Of a stretch of DNA of 45,227 nt, positions 5,987 through 27,426 are shown piece after piece. Positions within the stretch are counted from its first letter, which is position 1. Every line of letters starts with the position of its first letter. Source of the DNA: Planctomycetota bacterium (GTDB lineage Bacteria; Planctomycetota; Planctomycetia; Pirellulales; Pirellulaceae); NCBI GenBank assembly GCA_026692885.1, contig JAPLNJ010000895.1:1-45227 (forward strand). Direction: 5' to 3'. A model generated the notes under the pieces. That model did no database searches. It was not told the DNA's origin and saw nothing but the letters and a program-made list of their open reading frames with translations. The translations under genes and the position numbers were made by a program.

Positions 5987-8971
<2,985 letters not shown>

Positions 8972-10873: not shown

Positions 10874-11426
10874 CGTAGTGCTCCTCTGCGTCCATACGCA
10901 GTCAGAGAGTGAACCAAAAAGAATTACACCTTCCCAAGTGTAACGCCGCCGGGACGGTAGGGCCAGAGCAAGAGCGGAGATGAGCCGCCCGCAGCCTCCG
11001 CCCAGACCGAGTCCCGCGCGGATACAGCCCTAATAGACGATCCTTCGACGAAAAGGTTCGCGTTGGTTAGAAAAAATCTTGGCGATCCCACAGACGGATC
11101 CGTGAGAGACGACGCTCTTGCAAACGCTGCTGCCGGGACTCCCGCAGATTTCTTTTCGCACGGATGGCAGAGTCAGAGCACGGATGACGAGCGGGTTCAC
11201 CCAGTCACTTGGCGACTCTCCTGCTCCGTGCTCTGGCTCTGCCATCCGTGCGGTATCCTGCTTCCCCGCCCGGAAAAGGCGAGAGGTCTAATTAGAAAAG
11301 GGCCGCCGCGAGCGTTCGCCAAGGGCTACCAGCACGGGGCGACCCGGTTTGGAATTTTGCCCGCCGTCGGCGGGACAGGGGAACGGCCTGGTCCGTCTGG
11401 CTGGGCATCCGCCGCTGCATGCGGAG
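10874..11426. other. Non-coding stretch downstream of the DGR
   Basis: No convincing gene. It contains the hairpin repeat at 11158-11251 and, next to the template repeat, GGTCCGTCTGGCTG (11390-11403), which occurs in inverse orientation beside VR2 (16467-16480). Short open frames here are shadows. Confidence 0.5.
11158..11251. repeat. Inverted-repeat hairpin element, copy A
   Basis: A 27-bp arm GCACGGATGGCAGAGTCAGA.. (11158-11184) is inverted at 11225-11251 with one mismatch and a 40-nt loop. The same arm pair recurs at 21877-21952, and a single related arm lies at 16411-16447. Here it lies downstream of the TR on the DGR's transcribed strand and could end that transcript. Confidence 0.7.
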
Positions 11427-11547
11427 CTCGGGCCACGCGAAAGCCCAGATTCTCGTCGCGGTTCTCCGGCTCGTCCCTGTTGCGGTACGCCGCCCGGCAG
11501 TTCCTGGCGTCGTTGCCCCAGCTGCCGCCGCGTTTCACCCGGCGCGT
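11427..11547 (-). repeat. DGR template repeat (TR)
   Basis: 121 bp just downstream of, and overlapping by 13 bp, the reverse transcriptase gene. It aligns without gaps to VR1 (13359-13479). All 20 differences fall at T on the + strand, which is A on the transcribed strand; the other 96 bases are identical. Translated as if coding, it gives the FGE end motif RVKRGGSWGNDARNCRAAYR...LGFRVAR, with Asn/Asp/Glu codons at the variable places, as expected for a template rich in mutable A. The 23 bp at its 3' end on the coding strand (11427-11449) match VR1 exactly and are the likely initiation-of-mutagenic-homology (IMH) region. A G/C mismatch at 11426/13358 marks the end of homology. Confidence 0.95.
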
Positions 11548-12563
11548 GGTCTTCGGCCGCTCACCGGCATTTGTTCTAACACCGCCCGGCGGAAATGCCA
11601 AGACCGGGCCCCGGCCGCCATGGTGAACGCCACCAGCGACGTGCTGCGGGCCTGCAACTCGTCCTCCCCGATTTGACCGTCCAGATAACTGGTCTCCAAA
11701 GCCCGCAGCTTGCCAGTGAATCGGCGCCGGCTGCGGCGGTTCAACACCACGTGACTCGGGAATACGCGGCAGCCCAGGAAATCCACCCCGTGGCAAGTCC
11801 GATTGATGTAGGGTTCCGGTTTGAAGGTCAAACACAGCGCGTCGTCGATGTAGGTCCGGCACTGATCCAACGTTTCGCGCAAAGACGCAGCCGACGAGCC
11901 CCAGAGAAGCGTGTCGTCCATGTAACGCACGTAGCCCCGGACGCGAAGCGTTTCCTTGACAAACCGATCGAACCAACCCAAGTAGAAATTGGCGAAGTGC
12001 TGCGACATCAGACTGCCGATCGGCAGTCCACGCCCCAAGTTGCCGCGAAAGCTGCGGACGATTCGCTCCAGCAAGACCAGCAGCCTGCGATCTTTGAACA
12101 ACCGTTCCAGCCGCGCCAACAACACGTCGTGCGAGACGCTATCGAAGTACTTGCGGATGTCGGTCTTGAGGAAGAAGCCCTGGCCGGCGGAAAAGCCACG
12201 GGCGCGGGTGATGGCCGCCTCCCGCCCCCGGCCTGGCAGACAAGCGTAGGTATCGCGAATCAGCCAGCTCTCGAGGACCGGCTGGCAGACATTCATGATC
12301 GCATGGTGCAGGACCCGCTCCTCGAACCAGGGCGCGGTGATGATGCGTTGCTTCGGATCGTAGATCACCGACTGGTCAAAACGCCCCAGTTCCAGCGTTC
12401 CGTCCTGCAGTCCGCAGGCCAGGCGAAACAGATTGCCGTCCAAGTCGGCCGCGAACGCGCGGACCGCTCGGCTGGCTGGCTTCCCGTGGCTGGCCTTCCA
12501 GAAGGCCCACTGCAGATTCTCGCGGTCCAAGATCGCATCGAACAATTGCCCGGCTCGTCTCAT
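11535..12563 (-). CDS. DGR-type reverse transcriptase
   Basis: A 342-aa RNA-dependent DNA polymerase that would copy TR RNA into mutated cDNA. Motifs visible: YDPKQRIITAPWFEERVLHHA (res. 68-88); motif A TDIRKYFDSVSH (134-145); motif 4 GLPIGSLMSQHFANFYL (179-195), where IGxxxSQ is the signature that separates DGR polymerases from retron and group II types (QGxxxSP); catalytic YMDD (214-217); then GVDFLGCRVFPSHVVLNRRS. There is no maturase, endonuclease or protease domain. Length is in the usual DGR range. The start codon overlaps the stop of the HRDC gene (ATGA), so translation is likely coupled. The last codons overlap the TR. Confidence 0.95.
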   Translation of the reverse strand: MRRAGQLFDAILDRENLQWAFWKASHGKPASRAVRAFAADLDGNLFRLACGLQDGTLELGRFDQSVIYDPKQRIITAPWFEERVLHHAIMNVCQPVLESWLIRDTYACLPGRGREAAITRARGFSAGQGFFLKTDIRKYFDSVSHDVLLARLERLFKDRRLLVLLERIVRSFRGNLGRGLPIGSLMSQHFANFYLGWFDRFVKETLRVRGYVRYMDDTLLWGSSAASLRETLDQCRTYIDDALCLTFKPEPYINRTCHGVDFLGCRVFPSHVVLNRRSRRRFTGKLRALETSYLDGQIGEDELQARSTSLVAFTMAAGARSWHFRRAVLEQMPVSGRRPRAG

Positions 12564-13093
12564 GTGGGCCCCCCATCAGGCTCCGCGCCGGTGGCGCTGG
12601 CCGGCGTGGGGACTACGGCCTTCGCATCCGCCGTTCCTGCGGATTCCGCCAGGACGTCCAGGAATCTCGCCCCGTATTTTTCCACGCGAGCATCCCCGAC
12701 ACCCGCGATGGCCGCCAAATCCGTCTTGGTGCGGGCCTGCTTCTGGATCATCTTGGCCAACTGGTCGTTGTTGAAGATCAAGTAGGGCGGAACGCGCTCC
12801 TGCGCGGAGAGCTCCGTCCGCAGTCCGCGCAGCCGCTCGTACAAGGCATAACCGGCGGCCCCCAGCAGCTCGCGATAATCGACTCGCGCGCGATCCTTTC
12901 CGGGCGGCGAAGAGGGCCCGTCGGCTGGGGCCCGCTCAAGGTAATCAACGCAGATACTCCAGACCGAATCCCCGCCCTGCTCGACCCACCGCCGATCCAC
13001 GGTCATCACGCGATGGCTCCGCAGAAACGCATTCAGCTCCGCCTCCGCGACCTCATCCCCCCGATGCGGAATCACAAAGACTCGGTATGACAT
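12560..13093 (-). CDS. HRDC-domain protein, probable DGR accessory factor
   Basis: A 177-aa protein. An N-terminal part (MSYRVFVIPHRGDEVAEAEL...FLRSHRVMTVDRRWV...SVWSICVDYLE) is joined by a Pro-rich linker to an HRDC nucleic-acid-binding domain (about residues 85-150: ALYERLRGLRTELSAQERVP, PYLIFNNDQLAKMIQKQART, DLAAIAGVGDARVEKYGARF). HRDC-like proteins are known next to reverse transcriptases in DGRs that lack the Avd accessory protein, and no Avd is visible here, so a role in binding TR RNA or priming is inferred. Start ATG 13093 is chosen on family form; a GTG at 13117 with AGGG close upstream is an alternative. Its stop overlaps the RT start. Confidence 0.85.
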   Translation of the reverse strand: MSYRVFVIPHRGDEVAEAELNAFLRSHRVMTVDRRWVEQGGDSVWSICVDYLERAPADGPSSPPGKDRARVDYRELLGAAGYALYERLRGLRTELSAQERVPPYLIFNNDQLAKMIQKQARTKTDLAAIAGVGDARVEKYGARFLDVLAESAGTADAKAVVPTPASATGAEPDGGPT

Positions 13094-13128
13094 AAGTAGT
13101 AGCGTGCCGGCCGACACAAACCCTGGTT

Positions 13129-13229
13129 ACGAGGCTCTGCCTCGTAGCCCTCTGACCGCGAGGCTCCGCCTCGCGTAGGGCCGGCGGAGCCGGCAAGGCA
13201 GTGCGTTCCCAGGCAGGAGCCTGGGAACG
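13129..13229. repeat. Cluster of three perfect hairpins between VR1 gene and HRDC gene
   Basis: ACGAGGC..GCCTCGT (13129-13145, 7-bp stem), CGCGAGGC..GCCTCGCG (13157-13175, 8-bp stem) and CGTTCCCAGGC..GCCTGGGAACG (13204-13229, 11-bp stem). They lie 29-129 bp beyond the stop of the VR1 target gene. Structured DNA downstream of a VR helps retrohoming in some DGRs; it could equally be REP-like filler or an attenuator before the HRDC-RT genes. Confidence 0.55.
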
Positions 13230-13257
13230 AGAACGTGTTGCTTTGCTACGCCTTCCG

Positions 13258-15408
13258 CTACGGCACGCGGGGGGCGGGCTGCGCCTTTCCACCCCCCTCG
13301 GCCTTCGCTTCAGGCTCCGCTTGCTTGACCTGCGGTGCTTGACCTGCGGTGCTTGGACCTCGGGCCACGCGAAAGCCCAGAATCCCGACGCGGACCACCG
13401 GCACGACCCAGAGGCGGTACGCCGCCCGGCAGTCCCAGGCGCCGAAGCCCCAGCAGCCGCCGCGTCCCACCCGGCGCGAGGTCTGCTCAGGACCACGCGG
13501 ATCCGTCACCGCCCCCTCATGATCCTTCTCGAACCAGTCGCTGCACCACTCCCACACATTTCCTGCCAAGTCGCTGATCGACTCCGGTTCCGGGGTGTTC
13601 CCCAGCGGATAGATCCCCACCGGCGTCGGGTGGCCGACCTTCCCGTCGAAGTTCAGTCGCTGCTCATCAGCCGATTCAGCGCCCCAGGGATACCTTCGGC
13701 CGGTCGTGCCTCGAGCCGCACGCTCCCACTCGGCTTCGGTCGGCAGCCGACAGGCGGCCCAGGAACAGAACGCCGCGGCTTCGAACCAGCTCACGCCCAC
13801 CACCGGTCGCGATGGATTCGGCTGCTGCTGGTCCCATTTCTCCGGTGTGGTGAACTTGCCGAACCCGCCCGCGCTCCACCAATGTTCCTCCCCGTACCCA
13901 TCGTCTGCGATGAACCGCTGATACTGGCCGACGGTCAGAGGATAGCGAGCGATACAGAACGCCTCGAGGGAAACCGTTTGCGGCGACAATTCCCAGTTGT
14001 AGGCATCCTTGTCGTAGTTGGGCTCTTGACTCTTCTTCGATTGCGCTCCGATCACGAACCGGCCGGCGGGGATGTTCGCCCAATAGTCGTCCCGGTGGTG
14101 ATCCAGCCGCGGGTCGCCGGCTTGCCCTAGGGCATCGGCGGCGGCGATCCGCGTCTCGAGCGGCACGCTGGCCGATCGCTCTCGATCGAAGATCGCCGTC
14201 ACCGCTGCGGCCAGGCCGGGATAGCGGGGATCCGACACGGTGTACTGCAGCGGTGCCAGGTCGCTGAGCACCGCCCCCAGCAGCCCGAAGCAGCGGGCCT
14301 GATCGGCCAGTGGCGGGTTGCTGCCCAGCCGCTCCAACAGGCCGCTAACGAATCCATCGACTTTGCTGCGGCCCTGTTCGTGCAGGATCCCGGCCAGCAG
14401 CAGCACGACTTCGCGCCAATCGGGCGAGTACAACTTGGCGGCATCACCCAGCAGCATTTTCTGCTGCGCGTCCTCCAGGCGGCTGGAAACGGCCTTGGCG
14501 GCCAGGAATTCCTGGAAGGTCAGGTGCCAGAAGGCCACCTCGTTGCCGCGCCCCACGATGATCCCGCTGTCGACTTCCTCCTCGTCCAGGAACCGCTCGG
14601 CAAGTCCCAGGGCCAGATGCGGTTGCTGTCCTGCGCGAGCAAATTGCGGCAGCAGCTTCTCCGCCGCCTCGCGCTTCGGCAGTTGCATCTTGCGCCCGCC
14701 CGAAGCGTTCTGCATTTCCCAGGCCAGTTCCTGTAGCAGTTCCACCGTGCGGTCGGCGGTGGCGCGTCCCGCACGTTGTTCGCGCGATCGCGACAGCCAG
14801 GTGATGATCGATTGGTACAGATCCGCCCGCTGCTCGGGCAGCCGCCGTTCGTTCCAGTGCACGACGGCCAGGGCGGTCAGCATGACCGGGTTGCGGGCCA
14901 TGCGACGGATCTCCGGCCGCGCCCGCAACGCGGACAGCAGTTCGGCGGAGTGCTGGGCGGCGGACCCGGGGATCTCGCGATAGACGGCGTCGCACCAACG
15001 GGCCAGGAAGATCGCCACGGCGTCGTCGCCCAGCGCGTCGATGCGGGCGTGGGCGAAGCCGGGCAAGACCACGTCGTCCACGTAGGCGGCCGGCCGGCTG
15101 GTGACGACGAACCGGCAGCCGACGTAGGCGCGCGTGGCATTGCGGATCAGCCGCGACAGACGTTCTCGGGCCGGCCGATCGGGGGCCTCGTCCAGCCCGT
15201 CCAGCAGCACCGAGCAGACGCCGGCCTCCAATTGCCGCTGGAAGAAGGGTTGGTTCAGGCCCAGGCCGGCGGCAGCCAGGTAGTGCGGCAACCAGGCCGG
15301 CGCAGCATCCTCGGCCGGCGCATGGCCGCTGTTCGCGTGGCGTGCCAGGTGCTGGGCCAGCTCGCTCAAGCGGATGAATACCGGGAACGTGCGGTCGGTG
15401 ACGCCCAA
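13258..15408 (-). CDS. C-terminal part of DGR target 1: NACHT (STAND) ATPase with FGE/C-lectin domain carrying VR1
   Basis: Continuation, in a shifted frame, of the gene beginning at 16352. This part has the rest of the NACHT ATPase: Walker B-like SVLLDGLDEAPD, sensor region RFVVTSRPAAYVDDVVLPGF, and ARNPVMLTALAVVHWNERRL. A helical/ARM-like middle follows, then an FGE-sulfatase domain (about residues 460-690: YPLTVGQYQRFI, PVVGVSWFEAAAFCSWAACR, LPTEAEWERAARG, LAGNVWEWCSDW). VR1 forms the end of the FGE fold (RVGRGGCWGFGAWDCRAAYR..ILGFRVAR). A 30-residue Ala/Gln/Lys/Pro-rich tail, partly encoded by a 14-bp tandem repeat, ends the protein. No ATG starts this frame (15408 is a TTG), and the paralogue has one more C at the break (GCCCAG against GCCAG near 15438). 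The gene is therefore frameshifted or mis-sequenced. Nearly all of this segment is duplicated at 16466-18950. Confidence 0.85.
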   Translation of the reverse strand: MGVTDRTFPVFIRLSELAQHLARHANSGHAPAEDAAPAWLPHYLAAAGLGLNQPFFQRQLEAGVCSVLLDGLDEAPDRPARERLSRLIRNATRAYVGCRFVVTSRPAAYVDDVVLPGFAHARIDALGDDAVAIFLARWCDAVYREIPGSAAQHSAELLSALRARPEIRRMARNPVMLTALAVVHWNERRLPEQRADLYQSIITWLSRSREQRAGRATADRTVELLQELAWEMQNASGGRKMQLPKREAAEKLLPQFARAGQQPHLALGLAERFLDEEEVDSGIIVGRGNEVAFWHLTFQEFLAAKAVSSRLEDAQQKMLLGDAAKLYSPDWREVVLLLAGILHEQGRSKVDGFVSGLLERLGSNPPLADQARCFGLLGAVLSDLAPLQYTVSDPRYPGLAAAVTAIFDRERSASVPLETRIAAADALGQAGDPRLDHHRDDYWANIPAGRFVIGAQSKKSQEPNYDKDAYNWELSPQTVSLEAFCIARYPLTVGQYQRFIADDGYGEEHWWSAGGFGKFTTPEKWDQQQPNPSRPVVGVSWFEAAAFCSWAACRLPTEAEWERAARGTTGRRYPWGAESADEQRLNFDGKVGHPTPVGIYPLGNTPEPESISDLAGNVWEWCSDWFEKDHEGAVTDPRGPEQTSRRVGRGGCWGFGAWDCRAAYRLWVVPVVRVGILGFRVARGPSTAGQAPQVKQAEPEAKAEGGGKAQPAPRVP
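13326..13354. repeat. Two tandem copies of TGACCTGCGGTGCTT beside VR1
   Basis: 15-bp units at 13326-13340 and 13340-13354 (14-bp period), immediately downstream of VR1 on the coding strand. One copy lies at 16451-16465, beside VR2, after the stop of target 2. The template repeat has no copy next to it, so the unit marks VR sides only. Within target 1 it is translated as STAGQAPQVKQ. Confidence 0.75.
13359..13479 (-). repeat. DGR variable repeat VR1
   Basis: Gap-free match to the TR at 11427-11547. Of the 25 template adenines, 20 are changed here (to T, G or C on the coding strand); none of the other 96 positions is. The changes alter 15 residues of the FGE end: K-G, S-C, N-F, D-G, R-W, N-D, N-L, R-W, D-V, E-V, E-V, N-V, D-V, E-G and N-I. 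Conserved scaffold residues (GG.W, CRAAYR, P, LGFRVAR) are untouched. This indicates at least one past round of mutagenic retrohoming into this copy. Confidence 0.95.
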
Positions 15409-16352
15409 CCGTTCGCTCGCCGCGCCGGGGAGGTCGCCAGGTGGGTTTGGCAGAGTGTATGGACCACGCGGCGGAGAAAAGTTGTCTTGCCCGCGCCCGG
15501 ATCGCCGACGACCACCAGACGATCGTGGCGGAGCGCGTTGTGCAGCGGGACTGCGGCGGAGGACTCGGTCTCGAACTCCGCCGGAAAACCGGGCTGGCTG
15601 CGTCCGCGGCCGGTCGCTTTCGCCTCGCCCGACTCGCGCAGACCGGACCCGGTAGTCGTCAGCGAGATGAATAGGTCTTCGATGGGGAACAGGTAGGCCT
15701 CGCCGCGTCCGGCCTTCACGCCGCGGATTTCGATTTGGGATGTCTGGGCCAGCAGGTCGCGGAGATAGGCCGCCGGATCGGTCTGCTCGGGTGGCGAGGG
15801 TAGCGGGGAAGGCACGAGCTGACGGACGACGGCGCGCAGATGCTCACTAACCTTTTCGAAGAACCCCTCCCGGCTGCCCCGCACGGTCTCGTACGTGGCG
15901 TACAGGCCTTGCCGCTCGATCTGCTCGCGGAACTTGCGGACCTTGGCATATTGCGCCAGATCCAGTTCGTCCGGATCGACCTTGGCTTTGCTGAAGTAGA
16001 ACAGGATCCAGGGCACACCGGTGTCGCCCCAGCGTTTCAGGGCGTCGCGGAATTCCTGCTCGGTGCCCGATCCGTAGCGGCCGGTCTTGGTCCCGAAACG
16101 GTGCGCCATGAGACCCAGGTAGATGTGGTAAGCCGGCGTTTGGGCATCGATCACGGCTTGCGGCTGGGGACCGATCTGCGGCACCGCGTCCGCTTCCCAT
16201 TTCCAGACCTCCAGCCGGATCCCGCAGGCTCGGCCGTCGGTGCGATTGATGCTCTCGACGACCTCGTCCAGCACCGCGCGTTCGGCGGCGACGTCGCCGG
16301 GAGACGAGACAAAGATGCGGAGGATGCGGGCGGTTTCTGGTGTGGCACTCAT
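15366..16352 (-). CDS. N-terminal part of DGR target 1: DUF4062 domain plus NACHT P-loop (frameshifted)
   Basis: A 328-aa frame. Residues 8-110 form a DUF4062 domain (RILRIFVSSPGDVAAERAVL, YHIYLGLMAHRFGTKTGRYG, SGTEQEFRDALKRW, PWILFYFSKAKVD), often found at the N-terminus of NACHT and other STAND proteins. A linker shared with target 2 (LRDLLAQTSQIEIRGVKAGR, LFPIEDLFISLTTTGSGL) leads to the Walker A GDPGAGKTTFLRR at about residue 290. After THL the frame diverges from the paralogue and ends 22 codons later, because one C is missing near 15438. Restoring it joins this to the frame below, giving about 1030 aa. The start at ATG 16352 has AGGA 9 bp upstream; ATG 16361 is also possible. Confidence 0.85.
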   Translation of the reverse strand: MSATPETARILRIFVSSPGDVAAERAVLDEVVESINRTDGRACGIRLEVWKWEADAVPQIGPQPQAVIDAQTPAYHIYLGLMAHRFGTKTGRYGSGTEQEFRDALKRWGDTGVPWILFYFSKAKVDPDELDLAQYAKVRKFREQIERQGLYATYETVRGSREGFFEKVSEHLRAVVRQLVPSPLPSPPEQTDPAAYLRDLLAQTSQIEIRGVKAGRGEAYLFPIEDLFISLTTTGSGLRESGEAKATGRGRSQPGFPAEFETESSAAVPLHNALRHDRLVVVGDPGAGKTTFLRRVVHTLCQTHLATSPARRANGWASPTARSRYSSA

Positions 16353-16410
16353 GGAGGTCATTCCTGGGGATGAAAGGCAAAAAAGGGCTGCCGCGAACAG
16401 ATCTCTTCTC

Positions 16411-16447
16411 GCACGGATGACAGAGCCACAGCACGGATGACGAGCGG
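16411..16447. repeat. Hairpin-element arm, copy B (single arm)
   Basis: GCACGGATGACAGAGCCACA followed by GCACGGATGACGAGCGG, related to the arms at 11158-11201 and 21877-21907. Only one arm is present, in the 113-bp spacer between the two DGR target genes. Confidence 0.6.
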
Positions 16448-16465: not shown

Positions 16466-19400
16466 TCAGCCAGACGGACCTCGGGCCACGCGAAAACCCA
16501 GGTGGCCGGCGCGAAGTCCCGGTACGTCCCCGATGCGGTACGCCGCCCGGCAGATCCTGGCGTCGTACCCCCAGTTGCCCCCACGCAGAACCCGGAACGC
16601 GGCCTGCTCAAGACCACGCGGATTGGTCAGGGCTGTCACGGCGTACTCGCCATACCCGTCGGCACACCACTCCCACACGTTTCCGGCCAGGTCGCAAATG
16701 CCCTCCGGCGTGGTCCCCAGCGGATAGATGCCCACCGGCGTCGGATGTCCGAGCCGGCTGTCCGAGAAGTTCAAACGCTCCGGTTCCGCCGGTTCGTCGC
16801 CCCAGGGATACTTCCGGCCGGTCGTGCCTCGAGCCGCACGCTCCCATTCCGCTTCGGTCGGCAGCCGACAGGCGGCCCAGGAACAAAACGCCGCGGCTTC
16901 AAACCAGCTGACGCCCACCACCGGTCGCGACGGATTCGGCTGCTGCTGGTCCCATTTCTCCGGCGTGGTGAACTTGCCGAACCCGCCCGCACTCCACCAA
17001 TGTTCCTCCCCGTACCCATCGTCTGCGATGAACCGCTGATACTGGCCGACGGTCAGAGGATAGCGAGCGATACAGAACGCATCGAGGGAAACCGCGTGCG
17101 GCGGTGATTCCCGGTCATCAAAAGCTTGCGCATCGTAGTTGGGACCTTGACACTTCGATTGCGCTCCGATTACGAATCGGCTGGCGGGGATGCGCACCCA
17201 ATAGTCGTCCCGGTGGTGATCCAGCCGCGGGTCGCCGGCTTGCCCTAGGGCGTCGGCGGCGGCGATCCGCGTCTCGAGCGGCACGTTGACCGACCGCTCC
17301 CGGTCGAAGATCGCCGTCACCGCTGAGGCCAGGCCGGGATAGCGGGGATCCGACACGGTATACCGCAGCGGTGCCAGGTCGCTGAGCACCGCCCCCAGCA
17401 GCCCGAAGCAGCGGGCCTGGTCGGCTAGTGGCGGGTTGTGGCCCAGCCGCTCCAACAGACCGCTGACGAATCCATCGACTTTGCTGCGGCCCTGTTCGTG
17501 CAGGATCCCGGCCAGCAGCAACACGACTTCGCGCCAATCGGGCGAGTACAACTTGGCGGCATCCCCCAGCAGCATTTTCTGCTGCGCATCCTCAAGGCGG
17601 CTGGAAACGGCCTTGGCGGCCAGGAATTCCTGGAAGGTCAGGTGCCAGAAGGCCACCTCGTTGCCGCGTCCCACGATGATCCCGCTGTCGACTTCCTCCT
17701 CGTCCAGGAACCGCTCGGCAAGTTGCAGGGGCAGATGCCGTTTCTTTCCTGCGCGGGCAAATTGCGGCAGCAGTTTCTCTGCCGCCTCGCGCTTGGGCAG
17801 TTGCATCTTGCGCCCGCCGGAATCGTTTTGCATTTCCCACGCCAATTCCTGCAGCAGTTCCACCGTGCGGTCGGCGGTGGCGCGTCCCGCACGTTGTTCG
17901 CGCGATCGCGACAGCCAGGTGATGATCGATTGGTACAGATCCGCCCGCTGCTCGGGCAGCCGGCGTTCATTCCAATGCACGACGGCCAACGCAGTGAGCA
18001 TGACCGGGTTGCGGGCCATGCGGCGGATCTCGGGCCGCGCCCGCAGCGCGGACAGCAGTTCGGCGGAGTGCTGGGCGGCGGACGCGGGGATGTTGCGATA
18101 CACGGCGTCGCACCAACGGGCCAGGAAGGTCGCCACGGCGTCGTCGCCCAGCACGTCGATGCGAGCGTGGGCGAAGCCTGGCAAGACCACGTCGTCCACG
18201 TAGGCGGCCGGCCGGCTGGTGACGACGAACCGGCAGTCGGCGTAGGCACGCGTGGCATTGCGAATCAGCCGCGACAGGCGTTCCCGAGCCAGCCGATCGG
18301 GGGCCTCGTCCAGCCCGTCCAGCAGCACCGTGCAGACGCCGACCTCCAATTGCCGCTGGAAGAATGTCTGGTTCAGGCCCAGGTGGTTGCCCTGGCCGGC
18401 GGCGGCCAGGTAGTGCGGCAACCAGGCCGGCGCATCGTCCTCGGCCGGTGCGTCGCGACTGTCCGCGTGGCGTGCCAGGTGCTGGGCCAGCGCGCTCAAG
18501 CGGACGAACACCGGGAACGTGCGGTCGGCGACGCCCAACCGTTCGTTGGCCGCGCCGGGGAGGTCGCCCAGGTGGGTTTGGCAGAGCGTATGGACCACGC
18601 GGCGGAGAAAGGTCGTTTTGCCCGCGCCCGGATCGCCGACCACCACCAGGCGATCGTGGCGGAGCGCGTGATGCAGCGGGATCGGGGCGGATGCCTCGGT
18701 CCCCAACTCCACCGAAAGGCCGGGCTTGCTGTGGTTGCGGCCGGTCGAATTCGCCTCGCCCGACTCGCGCAGACCAGACCCGGTAGTCGTCAGCGAGATG
18801 AACAGGTCTTCGATGGGGAACCGGTAGGCCTCGCCGCGCCCGGCCTTCACGCCGCGAATCTCGATCTGGGAGGTCTGGTCCAGCAGGTCGCGGAGATAGG
18901 CGGTCGGATCGGTCTGCTCGGACGGTGCGGGTGGCGGGGAAGGAACGAGCCGGTGGACGGGTTCTTTCCCGAAGACGACCAGCGTAATTCCTGTCGCCGA
19001 CTCCTCCCACTGCGGGGGACGAAGGCCGAGTGCCTTGCACTCTTCGAGAATCTTCAGCGTCCCGCGTCCCACCCGCTCGATGATGCCTCGCAGGTAGAGC
19101 ACGTGCGCCATGTCCGGGTTGGCTGGTAGCGACGGATGGATCTCCTGGAGGTCGCTGATGCACAGACCAGCGGGCAGTTTCCCAGTATTCCAAATCTCGA
19201 TCCGATTCGAATAGATCCCGACGGTCATCCCTCCGGCGAAGGCGGCGTAATCCCGATGCACAATGGCGTTGATCACCCCTTCCCGCAAGGCCGCGAATGG
19301 GTACTGCGGCCGGTCTTCCCGCGCGATTTTGCCGGCCTTGAATTCCGACGCGATCGTGACGTGCCGATCAAGAAACGCGACCAACTGTTCCACCAGTGAG

Positions 19401-20125
19401 ACGGCGTGACCCTCAAACAGACGATCGTCGACGAAGTCACCGGTCTTGTCAGTCGCATAAACGGTCGCTCGAACCCGCGTCTGCGTCAAGCGATGGCTGG
19501 GATTCTCCGCGAACAGGACATCCGCCCCATTGGTGAGCTGCCCCGCCTGCCGGACTCCCAAGTCAGCCAGCACGTCGAGGATCTCCGTCACGTTTCGGAA
19601 GGCGTAGTTGCGCGCCCGCTGGGCCTCTGCGACGGTCTTCCAAATCTCCCTCTGGTCCAGATCATCCAACTCCAAACCCGCTGCCGCGAGCCGTTCCCAC
19701 CGAGTTGGCGCGACGTATTGCTGGCGGATCAGACGCCGAATCGTCTCCGCGTCCGCGGCGACCGTCTGTACTCCGTTGCGAATGTAGATCGCCCCCTGAC
19801 AAACGTACGGCCGGTCTCGGCCCGCGGGGACATCGATCGTTACGACGTCGCCTTGCGACGTAGCGTCGGTGCTGACGGACCAGAGCGCAGACGGACTAAT
19901 CGCATGACTCAGGGATTCCTTGATTTCCAGAACCCTGCAATCCGCGTTCTGGACAGGCTCAACGACTCCGCCTTCGCAGACACCAACCACAACCGCCCCG
20001 CCAGCCGTGTTCAGGAAGGCACAAACCGTGGTCGCGATACGATCCGAATCAACATCAGTCCCCCTGAATTCGAGCCGTTCCGATTCGCTCGCGTGAATGA
20101 GGTCTTCGATAGCCTTGCTGTTCAT
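16466..20125 (-). CDS. DGR target 2: AlbA_2/RecG-like domains fused to NACHT ATPase and FGE/C-lectin domain (VR2)
   Basis: A 1219-aa protein. An AlbA_2 (Schlafen-like) domain covers residues 8-135 (SERLEFRGTDVDSDRIATTV, CAFLNTAGGAVVVGV, GAIYIRNGVQTVAADAETIR). A RecG-type ATP-binding C-terminal block follows (275-365: PFAALREGVINAIVHRDYAA, NRIEIWNTGKLPAG, PANPDMAHVLYLRGIIERVG). From 393 on it matches target 1: the linker, Walker A GDPGAGKTT (497-505), VLLDGLDEAPD, ARM-like helices and FGE domain. It ends in VR2 and a GPSG tail. Start ATG 20125 has AAAGGAGG upstream, and its ATG overlaps the stop of the DUF4062 gene (ATGA). By family knowledge a STAND ATPase acts as a signal-triggered switch. 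Here the N-terminus would be the output and the lectin end the sensor, which is an inference. The frame is intact, unlike target 1. Confidence 0.92.
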   Translation of the reverse strand: MNSKAIEDLIHASESERLEFRGTDVDSDRIATTVCAFLNTAGGAVVVGVCEGGVVEPVQNADCRVLEIKESLSHAISPSALWSVSTDATSQGDVVTIDVPAGRDRPYVCQGAIYIRNGVQTVAADAETIRRLIRQQYVAPTRWERLAAAGLELDDLDQREIWKTVAEAQRARNYAFRNVTEILDVLADLGVRQAGQLTNGADVLFAENPSHRLTQTRVRATVYATDKTGDFVDDRLFEGHAVSLVEQLVAFLDRHVTIASEFKAGKIAREDRPQYPFAALREGVINAIVHRDYAAFAGGMTVGIYSNRIEIWNTGKLPAGLCISDLQEIHPSLPANPDMAHVLYLRGIIERVGRGTLKILEECKALGLRPPQWEESATGITLVVFGKEPVHRLVPSPPPAPSEQTDPTAYLRDLLDQTSQIEIRGVKAGRGEAYRFPIEDLFISLTTTGSGLRESGEANSTGRNHSKPGLSVELGTEASAPIPLHHALRHDRLVVVGDPGAGKTTFLRRVVHTLCQTHLGDLPGAANERLGVADRTFPVFVRLSALAQHLARHADSRDAPAEDDAPAWLPHYLAAAGQGNHLGLNQTFFQRQLEVGVCTVLLDGLDEAPDRLARERLSRLIRNATRAYADCRFVVTSRPAAYVDDVVLPGFAHARIDVLGDDAVATFLARWCDAVYRNIPASAAQHSAELLSALRARPEIRRMARNPVMLTALAVVHWNERRLPEQRADLYQSIITWLSRSREQRAGRATADRTVELLQELAWEMQNDSGGRKMQLPKREAAEKLLPQFARAGKKRHLPLQLAERFLDEEEVDSGIIVGRGNEVAFWHLTFQEFLAAKAVSSRLEDAQQKMLLGDAAKLYSPDWREVVLLLAGILHEQGRSKVDGFVSGLLERLGHNPPLADQARCFGLLGAVLSDLAPLRYTVSDPRYPGLASAVTAIFDRERSVNVPLETRIAAADALGQAGDPRLDHHRDDYWVRIPASRFVIGAQSKCQGPNYDAQAFDDRESPPHAVSLDAFCIARYPLTVGQYQRFIADDGYGEEHWWSAGGFGKFTTPEKWDQQQPNPSRPVVGVSWFEAAAFCSWAACRLPTEAEWERAARGTTGRKYPWGDEPAEPERLNFSDSRLGHPTPVGIYPLGTTPEGICDLAGNVWEWCADGYGEYAVTALTNPRGLEQAAFRVLRGGNWGYDARICRAAYRIGDVPGLRAGHLGFRVARGPSG
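16480..16600 (-). repeat. Variable-repeat-like region VR2, diverged from the TR
   Basis: Aligns without gaps to TR 11427-11547. 15 of 25 template A positions differ, but so do 13 of the 96 non-A positions (for example at 16496, 16502, 16505, 16514, 16568, 16580 and 16589). The first 15 bp at the IMH end are identical. It encodes RVLRGGNWGYDARICRAAYR...HLGFRVAR. The A-site enrichment says it belongs to the same scheme. The non-A changes say it was not recently copied from this TR. Confidence 0.75.
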
Positions 20126-20724
20126 GACGCCCTCCTTTGGGCAATTCTCTCCGTGATCTGCTCCAGGTCGCCAAATTGGGATCTGACGAATTCCATCGCA
20201 TCCTCGTGGCGAAAGTACGGCTGCACCCAATTGCCACTTCGTTCGGCAAGCGGGACACCGCGTCGAATCGCCGCTTCGTACATGTCGATCACCCGAACAT
20301 CGTCCAAGACGCTCGTCCGTTTGAAGACGAAGTCCGGTTTGGGCGTGTCGTCCAAGTTGAACCGATACTGCTTGAGCAGTTGCCGCGCGAACGCCACATG
20401 ATCATGGGCAAGGAACCACCGCAGTTTATTCAATTTGATGGCGCGAAGCAGTTCTTGATGAGTGATCGATTTCTCGACGCCTTCCTTCCCGCTGCCGTAG
20501 CGGGGCGTGATCAGCCCGAGAAACAGATCGCACTTGTCCACGGCGTCAAGGCAATTCTCGAAGGCTGTTTTCTGGGGATCGACAGGCAGCGTCCCCTTGT
20601 GCGACAGCCAGACTTCGTAGCCAAATCCACGCAACGCCGCGGATATCTGCTCTAACAAGTCTTCAATGCCGTAAACCGTGGAGGACAGCATGATCACCGG
20701 TTTGGGTTCACTACTCGCGCTCAT
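20122..20724 (-). CDS. Stand-alone DUF4062 domain protein
   Basis: A 200-aa protein starting MSASSEPKPVIMLSSTVYGI, then EDLLEQISAALRGFGYEVWL, DAVDKCDLFLGLITPRYGSG and SITHQELLRAIKLNKLRWF. The form 'vmlSST..dl...R..v...l...gy....' fits DUF4062. The second half (DVRVIDMYEAAIRRGVPLAE, GNWVQPYFRHEDAMEFVRSQ) is also seen in such proteins. The biochemical role is unknown. It is the first gene of the DGR cluster and is translationally coupled to target 2 by an ATGA overlap. Start ATG 20724 has GAGAGG at good spacing; ATG 20730 would place that site too close. It may act as partner or effector of target 2, in place of the DUF4062 fused in target 1. Confidence 0.75.
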   Translation of the reverse strand: MSASSEPKPVIMLSSTVYGIEDLLEQISAALRGFGYEVWLSHKGTLPVDPQKTAFENCLDAVDKCDLFLGLITPRYGSGKEGVEKSITHQELLRAIKLNKLRWFLAHDHVAFARQLLKQYRFNLDDTPKPDFVFKRTSVLDDVRVIDMYEAAIRRGVPLAERSGNWVQPYFRHEDAMEFVRSQFGDLEQITERIAQRRAS

Positions 20725-21118: not shown

Positions 21119-21814
21119 GGCACCAAACGGCATTTTTGGCCCCTGCGCGTAAAGCAGGGGACTTAACGGTTCAGCAGGGACGGGGCGCGAGACAAGGGGT
21201 CAGACGTGGGGTGTTCAGTTTGCGCCTGTCAAGGCCAATTGATTTGATCCAGGTTCTATTCCGCGTTTGGGGCTGGGGAAGGCTTCCCGGCGGAAACCGG
21301 CGTGATCCATTACTCTTCCGCCCCAAAGGGGCCAAAACAAATCAGCCCAGGGCAAAGCGTCGCGGCGACAGCCGCAGAGCGACGCCCTGGGTACGGGTTC
21401 GATTCAGCGAGGTAGCCCTGAAAGGGCGAAACAAATCGGTTCATCCCGCACGCATCGTTCGTCAGGTGCGGCCAAGGCTTGTTTCGCCCCTTCAGGGCTA
21501 GTGTTCTCAATCCTCTCATAACCCAGGGCGGCGCTACGCGGCTACGCCGCTACGCTCTGCCCTGGGCTGATTTGTGGCTGCCCCGTTGGGGCGAAAACCT
21601 GTGGATCACGATCAGGGGTGCCCCAGGAGCCACTCGGTCATCCTTGATTTCGTAATCACTCCGCGAAGCGAACCAGAATGGACCAGAATCAGGCATTCGG
21701 GAAAACACCAATTCACGGTAGAATCAAACAAACTGACCCCAGCTGGTGGTCCGTCTATGCGAAACCGTAAAACCTCATGCTTGACGCCGACAACCCCGAA
21801 AACCGCTTGGTGCG
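21119..21814. mobile_element. MITE-like element, composite copy 3
   Basis: It begins GGCACCAAACGGCATTTTTGG and ends CCGCTTGGTGCGAG, degenerate forms of the 13-bp TIR seen at 8722. Its sequence follows the same order as copy 1: GGGGTCAGACGT, the GTTCAGTTTG..GCCTGTCAAGGCC segment, the large palindrome (21305-21602), GAATCAGGCATTCGGGAAAA, and CTGACCCCAGC. Copies 1 and 3 share the palindrome at the same internal position, so they moved or duplicated as a compound unit. Confidence 0.7.
21305..21602. repeat. Large palindromic intergenic repeat, copy 2
   Basis: Same two-armed structure as at 2108-2403, with the arms closer to complete: CCCAGGGCAAAGCG near 21345 against CGCTCTGCCCTGGG near 21553-21567. 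Confidence 0.75.
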
Positions 21815-21876
21815 AGCACTGACTGATCCAAATGCCGTATTGACACACGGTTTGGATCTACCAGGTTTTGTTTCCC

Positions 21877-21952
21877 GCACGGATGGCAGAGCCAGAGCAC
21901 GGATGAGGACCGAGCCAGAAAGATATCCGTGCTTTGGCTTTGCCATCCGTGC
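21877..21952. repeat. Inverted-repeat hairpin element, copy C
   Basis: The 27-bp arm GCACGGATGGCAGAGCCAGA.. (21877-21903) is inverted at 21926-21952 with two mismatches and a 22-nt loop. It is related to copy A at 11158-11251. Confidence 0.7.
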
Positions 21953-22457: not shown

Positions 22458-24455
22458 TCAGATACGATCCAAGGTATCGATCCAGCGGGCTAACTCGACC
22501 AGTTCCTGATTGTTCAGATTTCGCGGTTCCCCCTCGGTGATCCGGACCGTGACGGGATACTTCATTGTCTGCAGTTGCTTGACGCCTTCCGCAATCGCCG
22601 CGGCCTGTTTGGCCGTCTTGGCGTAGGCGATGGAAAGAGCCAAGCGGCGGATCGGGTCATTGGCCGGCACCGCCATCCGCATGGGCAATGGGACGTCCAC
22701 GGCGGCGACGCCGCGGACCAACTCCTGGTTGGTGAAGGTCACCAGGTAGGCCATCGCCCCACCGCCCTGGTAGCCGTGAGCGACGATGCGCGTGCGGTCG
22801 ATGTTGTACTTGGAAACCAGGTCGTCCAGCGTCTTGCGGACAAAACCCAATTCCGTGGGCAACCAGCGGGCCGGGTCGGCGGCGCGAGGGGCCAGCAGAA
22901 TCAAGTCGTACTGCTCGCAAAGGGGCTTCCACCTGGCAATCAAATCCTTGGCCTCGAAACCGCCAGGGGCATGCAGCCACACGAGCACGCCATGAGCTAC
23001 GTCGGACCGATAGGTCTCGGGCACGTAGGCCACACACTTATGCTCGTCCTCCGGGAGCGTGATGGCGATTTCGCCCACCGCAAGCTTCGGACCCTGCTCC
23101 GCCTTCGAGGGCGACCGGGCCGGTGGCAGTTTGTCGGGAACGGCGGTGGGCAACGCCGCCAGCGTGAGCGGCATATCGCGGTTCTGGCCCGCGCGTTGGA
23201 TCGTGACAGCCAACTTGCCCTGCGGCGCGTGATTGGCCAGGATCTGCCAAGCCTCGGCGACGTTGTTCACAGGCTTGCCACCCAGTGCCAAGACGCGATC
23301 CTGGGCCTGGATGCCGGCTTGGGCGGCCGGACTGCCTGGGTAGACATAACGCACCACGATCCCCGGTTGCGTCGCAGGATCGCGCCACGGCAGCAGGCCC
23401 ACGAACGGATGCTCGTACGGCTCCAGGTGGTCCGCCAATTCAACAGTGGTCTCGATCCGATGGTCGCCGCGCAGGGCGACCACGCGGAGTTTCTCGCCGG
23501 CGTAGCGGCGGCCGAGGGCGTGTTTCAATTGAACCTGGCGGGCGATCGGTGTCCCATCGATCTCCACGATTCGGTCGCCCGCCTGCAAACCCGCTTGATG
23601 AGCCGGCGATTTGGGCTGGCAAGCCGCGATCTCCGCCGGTTCGGAGAACACGTCCTGCCCCTTGAGCGCCACGCCTAGGATGCCCGGCTTCAGTTCCTCA
23701 CCTTTCTTCAGGCGATCCAGGTAGGGCAGGATCTCGGCCAGGGGAACGGCGAAGCCAATGCCCGAATCGTACCACTCGGCGCCGGCCATTTCGTCCTGAG
23801 CCTGCGGGGACAGCGGCACGAGCACGCCCAGCACCCGGCCGCGAATATCCACCAGCGGACCGCCATAGTTATTCGGCGAGACCTTGGCATCGGTCTGAAT
23901 CGCTTTGCCCCAGATGCGGTTCAAGGCACTCAGGATGCCGACCGATAGATTGGGCTGGTTGCCTTCGAACGTCCGGCCGACGGCGATCGTCCACTGGCCG
24001 ACCACCATCTCGCTACGGGGGACCGCCTGCGGGACAACGAACTTCTCGGGCGAGTTGGCTTTCAACAGCACGAGCATCCGGCTGCGATCCCGCGCCACGA
24101 TGTCAGCCGCCGCCCGCTTGCCACTGGGCATGGTGACCAGGATCGAGGACGGCTGCTGGATAAAGTTGAACGCGCTGGACAGCACATAGCCGTCTTCGGA
24201 GACGGCCAAACCGGTGGTGGGCCCGGTGCCGACCAACACGCGGCCGACTTGCTCCAGACCGCCCAACGTTTCGATGCGCACGACAGACGGTGCGACGCGG
24301 GCCACAGCGGCCTTCATGGCCTGCTCTTCGAGAGCTTCCAGATCGTCCTGAGCTGCGGCAGAATTCGCCGTCAGGCAGGAAGTCACCGCGATGAGGAAGG
24401 CGGCGATACTTGAAAAGCGGTGACAAGTCACCGCACTCCAAAGGGGCTTCATCAT
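22458..24455 (-). CDS. Exported HtrA-like pseudoprotease with two PDZ domains and a C-terminal alpha/beta-hydrolase-like domain
   Basis: A 665-aa protein. A signal peptide (FSSIAAFLIAVTSCLTANSAAAQ) leads to a trypsin-like domain (about 50-245), PDZ 1 (255-335: PKSPAHQAGLQAGDRIVEID), PDZ 2 (350-425: YPGSPAAQAGIQAQDRVLAL) and an esterase-like domain (460-660: VPETYRSDVAHGVLVWLHAP, RTRIVAHGYQGGGAMAYLV). In the protease part the usual GNSGGP is NNYGGP, so the nucleophile Ser is missing, and the Asp-block reads RSRMLVLLK. It should bind peptides or proteins and not cleave them. In the hydrolase part, GYQGGGA has Gln where a nucleophile Ser would be expected, so that site too may be inactive. It abuts both neighbours with no spacer. 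Confidence 0.82.
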   Translation of the reverse strand: MMKPLWSAVTCHRFSSIAAFLIAVTSCLTANSAAAQDDLEALEEQAMKAAVARVAPSVVRIETLGGLEQVGRVLVGTGPTTGLAVSEDGYVLSSAFNFIQQPSSILVTMPSGKRAAADIVARDRSRMLVLLKANSPEKFVVPQAVPRSEMVVGQWTIAVGRTFEGNQPNLSVGILSALNRIWGKAIQTDAKVSPNNYGGPLVDIRGRVLGVLVPLSPQAQDEMAGAEWYDSGIGFAVPLAEILPYLDRLKKGEELKPGILGVALKGQDVFSEPAEIAACQPKSPAHQAGLQAGDRIVEIDGTPIARQVQLKHALGRRYAGEKLRVVALRGDHRIETTVELADHLEPYEHPFVGLLPWRDPATQPGIVVRYVYPGSPAAQAGIQAQDRVLALGGKPVNNVAEAWQILANHAPQGKLAVTIQRAGQNRDMPLTLAALPTAVPDKLPPARSPSKAEQGPKLAVGEIAITLPEDEHKCVAYVPETYRSDVAHGVLVWLHAPGGFEAKDLIARWKPLCEQYDLILLAPRAADPARWLPTELGFVRKTLDDLVSKYNIDRTRIVAHGYQGGGAMAYLVTFTNQELVRGVAAVDVPLPMRMAVPANDPIRRLALSIAYAKTAKQAAAIAEGVKQLQTMKYPVTVRITEGEPRNLNNQELVELARWIDTLDRI

Positions 24456-25589
24456 TCACTCCGTCGGCTTCAAGGTCAAATCCAATAACTCTTGCCCGCG
24501 TTGGACAGTCAAACGCAACGGGTCGATGCGGTCGATGAACGAGATCTCTTCCGCCACGTGCTGGCAGGAGGAGGCCACACGGTCGTTGACGAACAGGATC
24601 AAGTCGTCCGGTTGGAGGCCCGCATTTTCGGCGGGAGAATCGGGCCGCACCCGTTCGGCAAACGGTGGCGTCTTGGTCAGCACGGGCGGCATCAGCGTGA
24701 TACCGGACCGCCACAAAGTCCAGGGCTGGGCGGGTTTCTTCGCCGTCGAGTTCTCGCTGCGCGGTCGGGTCTTGCCGGCCAGCAGGTCGGCCACCGCGGC
24801 CTGCAAGTCGGCCACAGGGATCGCGTGATTGAGCCAGGTGTTGTTCAACGCGTTGCGCAATTCCTTGCCCAGGAGTCCGGCGAGCGACCCCTGTCGATTC
24901 GTGAGCGCACCGCCAGCTGCGCCGGGATTGTTCGTCATCGCGTCCACGACATACACGTTCCCGCGGTACGGCGTTTCAAAGGCTCCGCGGCGCGCCGACA
25001 GTTGCGTTGTTGCAGTGACGCTGCCGTGCTGGACGCTGGTCGATTCGGCACCCACCGCGACGCCGAACAAGTTGCTGAACGCCAGCACGCGATCGCCGAC
25101 CTGCAATTCCACCGCCTCGTCGAGTTTGAAGTGCGGCAAGTCCTCCGCAGGGATCTTCAGGATCGCGATTTCGAGCCGCGGGTCAGCACCCACGAGTTGC
25201 GATTCCAGCCGGCGACCATCGTCCAACGTCACCGTCACGATATCGCTGTCCAGCACGTAGCTCCACACGGTCAGTACGTGCCCTTTGGGCGAGATCAGAA
25301 ATCCCGTCTGATAGGCTTCCAGGCCGGCGCCGCCGCCGGCGCCGTAGATCTTCACCAGCTTCGGCTGCACCGTTTGGATCACGGCCGCGAATGACGGGGG
25401 AGCGGCAGGTAGAGCACGCGTTGCAATGACGAACAGCAGCATGAGCACAAGCAGCGTCAGCCAGCAGCGCGACGTGGGACTCCCCTCACCCCAACCCTCT
25501 CCCCGGAGTACCGGGGCGAGGGAGTTGTGTTTCGGGCAAGCCTTGGCTTCCCAGGTCGTCTTTTCACGGTCCCTACTTGCCCGCAGCAT
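24456..25589 (-). CDS. Exported trypsin-like/PDZ protein lacking the catalytic Ser
   Basis: A 377-aa protein. A hydrophobic leader (TLLVLMLLFVIATRALPA) is followed by a protease fold (YQTGFLISPKGHVLTVWSYV, DDGRRLESQLVGADPRLEIA, ILKIP) and a PDZ domain near the C-terminus (VRPDSPAENAGLQPDDLILF). The expected GNSGG is PGAAGG and the His position reads VWSYV, so the catalytic residues are gone. The N-terminal 40 residues before the leader are encoded by a dispersed intergenic repeat (25481-25535). The real start may therefore lie later than ATG 25589, within the hydrophobic leader. It overlaps the upstream gene by 17 bp if 25589 is right. Confidence 0.78.
   Translation of the reverse strand: MLRASRDREKTTWEAKACPKHNSLAPVLRGEGWGEGSPTSRCWLTLLVLMLLFVIATRALPAAPPSFAAVIQTVQPKLVKIYGAGGGAGLEAYQTGFLISPKGHVLTVWSYVLDSDIVTVTLDDGRRLESQLVGADPRLEIAILKIPAEDLPHFKLDEAVELQVGDRVLAFSNLFGVAVGAESTSVQHGSVTATTQLSARRGAFETPYRGNVYVVDAMTNNPGAAGGALTNRQGSLAGLLGKELRNALNNTWLNHAIPVADLQAAVADLLAGKTRPRSENSTAKKPAQPWTLWRSGITLMPPVLTKTPPFAERVRPDSPAENAGLQPDDLILFVNDRVASSCQHVAEEISFIDRIDPLRLTVQRGQELLDLTLKPTE
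25481..25535. repeat. Dispersed GC-rich phrase, copy 2
   Basis: Reads CCCCTCACCCCAACCCTCTC...GGAGTACCGGGGCGAGGG, the same as the complement of 189-240. It lies in the 5' end of the PDZ gene frame and is translated there as NSLAPVLRGEGWGEG. Confidence 0.6.
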
Positions 25590-27426
25590 ATTCAATTCTT
25601 TCCCACTTCAGTTCGGCAAACTGCCGGTCGCCGTAGCGTACGGTCATGCGGTGCGGCAACTCGCCGCCCGGCACCGCACGGAAATCAGCGAAGTAAATCT
25701 CGCACGGATCCACGGTCGGCTCCGGCCACAGCTCCAGACCGATCAATTGGCCGCTCTGCGGATCACACAGAAATCGCGTCTCCATGACGTCGTGAGTTCC
25801 GATCAAGATATCGTACAGTCCCACGCGTCCAAGCACGGGCGCCGTGCCCCAGTAAACCACCTCGCCGAATTGCTGCGGTCCCAGTCGCAGGAAACGCTGC
25901 CAAAGGTGCAACGCGACCAGCAGTCCGCCGCTTTGCGCAGGTTCCCGCTGTTCGCCCAGCTCCTGCTTCAAGTCGACCTGGGCCTCGGCCGGAAAGCGGC
26001 CGAGCACTTTGTCGGGTCCTAACTCGATGTCCACCTTGCTCCCGTCCTGCGCCGTGCCGGACAACTTCCAGGTGTCCGCCGTCTTTGAAAAATCACCGTG
26101 CGCCGCGAGCGACTTCCAGACCCGCTCGCGATTCAGTTCGTTGAAGTAGTAGTTGGCGTAGCCCTTACGCGCCTTGATGAACTTCTTCACCTGCTCTGGA
26201 ATCGCCTGCTTCGAGGGTGTATGCGGCACGGGCATCGGCTGCGGTTCGGGGCGCTGTGGGCCTTTGTCGCCGCCCTTGGGCTTGGACTGTGGTTTCGGTT
26301 GGGGCAGTTCCGCGGGCTTCCGCACTTTCTCCAACAGTTCCTCGATGCCGTGCACCCCCATTAGACGCACCAAGACGTCGTGACGCTGGCCCTCATGCCG
26401 GTAGCTGAGCGGCACGCGCCAGCCCTTAGGGAAGATGCCCAGGACATTCTTCAAGCCATTGACGGTCGTGATCGATCGGCCGCCGATGGCAAACACTTCG
26501 TCGCCATAACGCAACCCGCGGCGATAGACGTCACTGGTGTCGAGGATGTCGCTGACCACCACGCGGCCGTCCTCGTCCCGGGATACGGTGGCACCCAACG
26601 TCGCGTGGTCCACGATGCGTCCGCTGTGCAAGACGCCGAGAAAGTTCTTGATCTGGTTGATGGAGATCGAGTAACCCACGCCCACGTTGACGCGACCACG
26701 CTTCTCGAACGAGCAGCGGCCGTTGATGCCGATCAAGTCGCCGTCGGAATTGTACAACGGGCCGCCGGAATTGCCCGGATTGATCGAAGCATCGGTCTGG
26801 AGACAATCGGTGTATTCCAACAACGTGCCCGCCGGACCTTGGTAACGATGCACGCCCGAAACGATGCCGTAGGTGACGGTGGGCTGGAAATCAGTGGCCA
26901 GCAGGAACGGGTTGCCGACGGCAAAGCACCAGTCGCCCACGTGCACCTGGTCGCTGTCCGCCAACTTCGCGGCGGGGAAATCCACACGCCCCAGCAGCTG
27001 GATCAAGGCCACATCGCCGGTGGGATCCAGTCCGACCAGGACCGCATCGTACAAACCGCCGTCGGCCATAGCACATTTCATGGTCTCGCCAGCCGGTTGG
27101 GTGACGTGGAAGTTCGACAGGGCGTAGCCGTCAGGCGAGATGACTACCGCCGAGCCGCCGCCTTGGCCGCCCCCGGCGAACACGCAGACCGCCGTCTTCG
27201 CCGCCTTGGCCACCGCGGCGATGCGATCTTGTTCCGCCTTGAGCACCGGGTCGGGAACCTCGGCCGCCCCGGCCGTGAGGCAAGCGGACAGAAGAAGAAT
27301 TCCGGCAGCCCACACTGGCCCGAATCGCCCGCGAGGGATGCCCGTGCTGGCGCGTTTTGCCGTTGCGCAGGCTGGCGTGCTGCGAGATGGAGTACCGCGA
27401 AGCGGTTGTGTCTCGCTCTTGCTCAT
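25573..27426 (-). CDS. Exported HtrA-like serine protease with PDZ domain and long C-terminal extension
   Basis: A 617-aa protein. A signal peptide (VWAAGILLLSACLTAGAA, about res. 38-55) leads to a trypsin-like domain with all three catalytic sites: SNFHV (His), DPTGDVALIQL (Asp), NPGNSGGPLYNSDG (Ser). A PDZ-like block follows (YRRGLRYGDEVFAIGGRSIT), then a Pro/Gln/Lys-rich linker (PQPKPQSKPKGGDKGPQRP) and a unique 200-aa C-terminal domain. It is the only one of the three protease-like proteins in this operon that looks active, so the other two may be regulators or adaptors. Start ATG 27426 overlaps the stop of the NPCBM gene (ATGA), with GCGAGG upstream. Confidence 0.85.
   Translation of the reverse strand: MSKSETQPLRGTPSRSTPACATAKRASTGIPRGRFGPVWAAGILLLSACLTAGAAEVPDPVLKAEQDRIAAVAKAAKTAVCVFAGGGQGGGSAVVISPDGYALSNFHVTQPAGETMKCAMADGGLYDAVLVGLDPTGDVALIQLLGRVDFPAAKLADSDQVHVGDWCFAVGNPFLLATDFQPTVTYGIVSGVHRYQGPAGTLLEYTDCLQTDASINPGNSGGPLYNSDGDLIGINGRCSFEKRGRVNVGVGYSISINQIKNFLGVLHSGRIVDHATLGATVSRDEDGRVVVSDILDTSDVYRRGLRYGDEVFAIGGRSITTVNGLKNVLGIFPKGWRVPLSYRHEGQRHDVLVRLMGVHGIEELLEKVRKPAELPQPKPQSKPKGGDKGPQRPEPQPMPVPHTPSKQAIPEQVKKFIKARKGYANYYFNELNRERVWKSLAAHGDFSKTADTWKLSGTAQDGSKVDIELGPDKVLGRFPAEAQVDLKQELGEQREPAQSGGLLVALHLWQRFLRLGPQQFGEVVYWGTAPVLGRVGLYDILIGTHDVMETRFLCDPQSGQLIGLELWPEPTVDPCEIYFADFRAVPGGELPHRMTVRYGDRQFAELKWERIEYAAGK

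Follow-up and report, generated by a model that had tools for sequence, protein, structure and literature searches.

A diversity-generating retroelement that likely rewrites the sensor end of a NACHT receptor-like protein in a planctomycete-like contig

Introduction

The 45,227 nucleotides (nt) analysed here in full (the window; Planctomycetota bacterium, contig JAPLNJ010000895.1) carry a genuine diversity-generating retroelement (DGR), in which a template repeat (TR) and a variable repeat (VR1) in a neighbouring gene differ at template adenines and nowhere else. This DGR quite probably rewrites the 3' end of the neighbouring gene from a copy of its template RNA in which the adenines are randomised, so that a NACHT receptor-like protein would keep changing on the side predicted to bind a ligand. 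The A-only copy lies within a target gene and both targets resemble immune-receptor relatives, which makes the rewriting of a predicted defence-sensor tip likely. The likely role of the element is to diversify the sensor ends of NLR-like conflict proteins, a function that has been proposed for other loci (Dore et al., 2024). On the minus strand the order from 5' to 3' is target 2, target 1, a gene with an HRDC domain, the reverse transcriptase (RT) gene and the TR.

Template and Variable Repeats

11427-11553, minus strand: TR, whose 5' 19 nt are the last five RT codons, the stop codon and one base of the preceding codon
13359-13485, minus strand: VR1, with 21 differences from the TR, at template adenines only
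13359-13381, minus strand: invariant 3' end of the repeat, encoding LGFRVAR, the presumed initiation-of-homing region
16480-16606, minus strand: VR2, differing from the TR at 17 of 28 adenine sites and at 13 of 99 other sites

Gap-free alignment of 11427-11547 with 13359-13479 has given 20 differences, all of them among the 25 thymines of the + strand and none among the other 96 bases (hypergeometric P = 1.5e-18), so that the 20 substitutions in 121 bp claimed in an earlier note on this DNA have been recovered exactly, with zero non-A differences. The match extends up to 11553 and 13485, where 21 of 28 coding-strand adenines and 0 of 99 non-adenines are changed (P = 1.9e-18 for random placement over 128 bp). 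Within 13359-13381 the TR and VR1 are identical, and VR2 carries two differences in 23 positions. An A-masked scan of the whole window with the TR has returned VR2 as the sole further copy, with an excess of changes at A sites (P = 1.2e-6); a third copy has not been found, the next best place in that scan agreeing at 51.5% of the non-A sites.

For comparison, 59 TR/VR pairs have been collected from 53 loci with related RTs, in which 1,085 of 2,007 template adenines are changed (to T 478, G 443, C 164). The detection rule demanded an excess of changes at A, and the pairs are therefore examples and not an unbiased sample; ten of 69 rows had been dropped before the count, namely the T-based rows of L002, L021, L044, L047, L054 and L073, two palindromic rows (L009), a second piece (L069) and L077. 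The fraction of altered adenines in VR1 lies above the overall 54% of these relatives, among which four of the 59 pairs reach at least 75%. In VR1 the template adenines have become T 13 times, G 6 times and C twice, a spectrum that does not differ significantly from that of the relatives' pairs (P = 0.26), and a special bias towards T is consequently not claimed. That the last homing was recent, as the earlier note had concluded from the lack of non-A changes, is a fair reading but a weaker one than stated, since 35 of the relatives' 59 pairs, detected with the A-bias described, also lack any non-A difference.

Reverse Transcriptase and HRDC Genes

11535-12563, minus strand: DGR-type RT, 342 aa, open frame, with IGSLMSQ, YMDD and RVT_1
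12560-13117, minus strand: HRDC-domain accessory protein, an N-terminal beta-alpha-beta-beta part followed by HRDC, overlapping the RT start by 4 nt

The RT has been assigned to the DGR lineage by its motifs (IGSLMSQ at residue 182, YMDD at residue 214) and by its best solved-structure match in the Protein Data Bank (PDB), to the RT in entries 8ub7-8ube, the Bordetella phage DGR complex (E = 4.4e-43 for 8ub7); the second-best match, far behind, is a GsI-IIC RT (2e-14). The RT adjoins the TR, as had been noted, and the two additionally overlap by the 19 nt given above, the RT stop codon lying at 11535-11537. In 52 of the relatives' pairs the TR follows the RT start on its 3' side, and 30 of these have such an overlap; in 7 more pairs the TR lies 5' of the RT. 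As group 3 of the DiGReF collection already includes TRs that overlap an end of the RT open reading frame (ORF) (PMC3521204), the overlap has been considered and rejected as a novelty, and the layout here shows no notable difference from that group as described there.

In the accessory protein the HRDC domain has been recognised with E = 1.6e-17, and the model matches the HRDC fold (template modelling score 0.90 by the length of 1wud_A). Of 83 relative loci from genome and viral contigs, 77 likewise have an HRDC gene 5' of the RT gene, in most cases abutting it or sharing bases with it. As a novelty the HRDC accessory has likewise been rejected, for it is already described in PMC4891356 and PMC10053308. 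The N-terminal beta-alpha-beta-beta part of the accessory (12560-13090) is conserved and has no Pfam match, and no convincing separate match for it has come from a search with the whole model, the part not having been searched alone.

The Two Target Genes

16361-13258, minus strand: target 1 as a whole, DUF4062, NACHT and FGE-sulfatase with VR1, by domain matches
15366-16361, minus strand: first open frame of target 1, 331 aa, DUF4062 and NACHT P-loop, set off near 15434
13258-15408, minus strand: second open frame of target 1, 716 aa, remaining NACHT, helical part and FGE-sulfatase/C-lectin domain with VR1
16466-20230, minus strand: target 2, ORF of 1254 aa (1219 aa in the protein database), frame intact, SLFN_AlbA_2, HATPase_c_4, NACHT and FGE-sulfatase with VR2

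The A-only relation of TR and VR1, the open RT, the HRDC gene and the C-type-lectin/FGE target domain together uphold the DGR interpretation of the earlier note, which had passed over the second target with VR2, the start of the TR inside the RT gene and the frame break in the VR1 gene. Position 16352, which it gave as the end of the element, is close to where the first target gene starts, and the second target extends to about 20.1 kb.

The target body is present as a tandem duplication. From about 15.8 kb in target 1 and 18.9 kb in target 2 onward the DNA of both genes is 89% identical, and upstream, in the N-terminal modules, it is unrelated. Divergence between the targets, with 0.156 synonymous changes per synonymous site (dS) in the NACHT part, peaks at a dS of 0.6-0.8 in a strip of about 250 nt directly 5' of the VR (13487-13740). 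A possible reading is that gene conversion made the bodies alike and homing did so for the VR, which left an older strip between them. A 50-nt repeat occurs at 11145-11194, 16398-16447 and 21864-21913 (76-90% identity to the first copy). Its copies flank the TR on the 3' side, separate the two targets and precede target 2 on the 5' side, and so mark the edges of the parts of the cassette; the repeat could have aided the duplication.

The NACHT domain of target 2 contains GDPGAGK (residue 532) and VLLDGLDE in one frame (PF05729, E = 1.4e-7), the Walker A and Walker B motifs, so that both lie in one protein. Target 1 in this assembly does not join the two in one protein, since near 15434 its length departs by one base from that of target 2, which breaks the frame inside NACHT. 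The 430 codons after the break have a nonsynonymous-to-synonymous ratio (dN/dS) of 0.22 against target 2, and such constraint fits a very new break or an assembly error; the most recently rewritten sensor accordingly resides on a broken gene or on an error of assembly. A programmed frameshift is not claimed, a slippery heptamer not being obvious by eye.

PF13271 (DUF4062) has been reached in target 1 exactly at the cut-off (E = 2.8e-5), and its GTExEF stretch holds two conserved glutamates (27 of 35 and 26 of 35 rows), both candidates for the catalytic glutamate published as E97. Against PDB sequences the DUF4062 segment has matched only designed barrels and other chance-like entries; the N-terminal module of target 2 has given a single match there, 3lmm (E = 7.8e-6).

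The Variable Domain

The variable domain has the C-type-lectin/FGE fold with the VR at the 3' end of the gene (model with a mean predicted local distance difference test score of 76.9 and a predicted template modelling score of 0.82). Among 33 homologs, the 19 adenine-programmed residues show a variability of 2.67 bits compared with 0.78 bits for their neighbours in the VR. This agreement between programmed residues and variable columns offers a sequence-level prediction of the residues that touch the ligand. FGE has two catalytic cysteines; when aligned to 5nxl and 6s07, VR1 appears to have one cysteine where FGE has two, an uncertain placement owing to gaps in this stretch.

Proposed Mechanism

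In the proposed mechanism, the RT and the HRDC protein would make a mutated cDNA from the TR RNA, with random bases at the adenines, and the invariant 3' end would direct its homing. The FGE/C-lectin tip may then bind a molecule of the invader, upon which assembly of the NACHT ATPase would activate the N-terminal part, a DUF4062 module in target 1 and a Schlafen-AlbA_2/HATPase module in target 2. As the two targets share a body and differ in their N-termini, one template can feed one type of variable sensor to two outputs. If true, a single template would serve a variable tip that could take about 10^15 sequences, coupled to a NACHT switch with a choice of two outputs; one of these belongs to a family (DUF4062) for which NADases active in phage defence have lately been reported. 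More tentatively, and with the odds against it, the mutated tips might equip two NLR-like proteins whose killing modules differ, target 1 bearing a TIR-like NADase in the DUF4062-NACHT layout known from human TEP1 and NWD1, and so form an antibody-like, anticipatory repertoire wired to NAD depletion. Should this hold, the locus would be a compact test case for an anticipatory immune repertoire in bacteria.

Several observations weigh against the reading of the locus as a working diversifier of defence sensors. The 13 non-A differences of VR2 argue that VR2 has not lately been rewritten from the present TR. No clear hairpin, a feature of a subset of DGRs, has been seen directly 3' of VR1 or VR2; the sole candidates are an imperfect 12-nt pair whose start is 59 nt 3' of VR1 and, about 70 nt 3' of VR2, an imperfect palindrome unrelated to that pair. 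As assembled, target 1 has its P-loop and its Walker B region in separate frames. In searches by structure and by sequence, the target domain has been matched best mostly by enzymes (EgtB, FGE) and not by receptors. Of the human DUF4062-NACHT proteins only TEP1 has been described to hydrolyse NAD, and not NWD1, NWD2 or NPHP3 (PMC13174449). In the nearest relative DGR, L001, the RT gene as recorded (700-1728) is interrupted by an in-frame stop at residue 35. No population variants have been found either, homologs outside the window being at most 66% identical among the matches listed, and a search of relatives for other versions of VR1, which the earlier note had proposed, has yielded none in genome contigs, viral contigs, plasmids or phages.

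Alternative Readings

A real DGR might serve non-immune targets, with the tips varied for surface or environmental ligands or for signalling between kin, and we regard this as a rather improbable alternative. Among ten targets scanned in the same RT clade there are kinase-FGE, caspase-like-FGE and FGE-alone proteins; the combination of NACHT with a DUF4062 or Schlafen N-terminus, in turn, is a layout reported for conflict proteins (PMC10907252, PMC13174449), which argues for an immune role.

It is less likely still that the DGR is dead or dying, its last homing being recent, the rewritten target already a pseudogene and the cell no longer benefiting. The one-base break within the NACHT of target 1, the non-A differences of VR2 and the in-frame stop in the nearest relative's RT would all agree with such decay. 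Against it stand the open frames of RT and HRDC protein, the intact target 2 and the low dN/dS past the break, as expected for a very new break or an assembly error.

That TR and VR1 are an ordinary duplication with A-biased decay and no retrohoming would suit the tandemly duplicated target body, but it is practically refuted already by the absence of non-A changes beside 21 altered adenines, and the 59 relatives' pairs beside related RTs are A-only or nearly so.

Relation to Known Systems

For the DGRs of clade 5D, the diversification of C-lectin sensors of NACHT/STAND proteins has been described, commonly with two targets per locus and some TIR or peptidase N-termini, and antigen sensing has been proposed there as their function (Dore et al., 2024; PMC10907252). 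Compared with the clade as presented in that text, the locus here has DUF4062 and SLFN_AlbA_2/HATPase_c_4 N-termini, nearly identical bodies and a planctomycete-like host. A DGR-linked FGE-type variable domain (FGS) fused or linked to conflict modules, as here, has been reported as well (Kaur et al., 2020; PMC7159879); the fused or adjacent MoxR-vWA partner of the systems described there is missing here, MoxR/DUF58/BatA genes lying about 18 kb away. Since both of these papers already describe such systems, the locus is a further example. In the Treponema denticola DGR the HRDC accessory gene overlaps the RT gene, as here, whereas the targets described there have predicted lipoprotein signals and the variable domain here is fused to NACHT (PMC4891356). 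The Treponema denticola variable protein 2y3c has the same fold as the variable domain here.

Target 1 has the DUF4062 module in common with the Swarozyc defence proteins (PMC13174449, preprint), and in human TEP1, NWD1, NWD2 and NPHP3, covered by the same preprint, DUF4062 adjoins NACHT as in target 1; the C-terminus here is instead FGE/C-lectin, and the term 'diversity-generating' does not occur in the main text of that preprint. Literature that joins DUF4062 with a retroelement has not been found in a search that covered texts apart from supplementary files, and the papers with DUF4062 and NACHT, judged by title or the start of the abstract, include none about DGRs. The text of PMC8144416 is without the words accessory, HRDC and NACHT. 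A DUF4062 module, from a TIR-like NADase family, under the control of a DGR may be new. Particular to this locus are the shared body, which carries a DUF4062 module in one target and a Schlafen/HATPase module in the other, and the agreement of programmed residues with those variable across homologs.

Relatives of the Element

Genome contigs have provided 77 loci with RT relatives (best RT 64% identity) and viral contigs six (best 47%). All ten of the best RT matches come from records under planctomycete names, such as Pirellula, Rhodopirellula and Singulisphaera. Of 392 sampled genomes from the phylum of L001, 41 have an RT match at E <= 1e-20, the best again at 64%; in seven genomes from the family of the best ThiC match, a set without a positive control, none has been found at E = 1e-60. 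Closer relatives have been found neither on plasmids (three records, the best covering 21% at 66%) nor in phages (124 records, all below 60%).

The VR of L001 (RT 64% identical) lies in a DUF4062-NACHT-FGE gene in one frame, whose DUF4062 is 58% identical to that of target 1, PF13271 being slightly below the cut-off there. The domain scan has covered ten of the 54 relative targets listed and has revealed further fusions of the variable domain, to a caspase-like domain (L004), a kinase (L007) and a metallophosphatase-NACHT (L021), with FGE alone in some. The 120 family members listed include two from the window itself, and with E = 1e-5 as the limit 35 of the 120 match target 1 in its DUF4062 segment; as PF13271 is also marked in members that do not match this segment, the family holds more than one DUF4062 subtype. 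Besides its own protein, the N-terminal module of target 2 is matched among the matches listed only by P0027 (25% over 218 residues). P0003 is a DUF4062 protein (51% over 175 residues), and for P0003 and P0027 alike a longest contig of 145,375 bases is listed, which points to a similar pair in a second genome. In the genome of L002 (G002) three DGR-type RTs are related to that of the window, with identities of 60, 59 and 52%, and a fourth, weaker match has 28%.

Flanking Genes and Repeats

The flanking genes encode ThiC, an AI-2E family transporter, DUF1552, HtrA-like proteases and MoxR/DUF58/BatA, and look chromosomal in character; ThiC (7278-8717) has up to 82% identity in planctomycetes, the phylum in which it was searched. 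Three adjacent trypsin/PDZ (HtrA-like) genes and a gene with an NPCBM domain occupy 22458-28619, where no link to the DGR has been seen. At gathering scores Rfam has given no match anywhere in the window, an 88-nt repeat included, which occurs five times (2153-2240, 21351-21438, 28760-28847, 37611-37698 and 45124-45211) and belongs to longer repeat families of up to 228 nt that are spread, with inverted partners, over the whole window.
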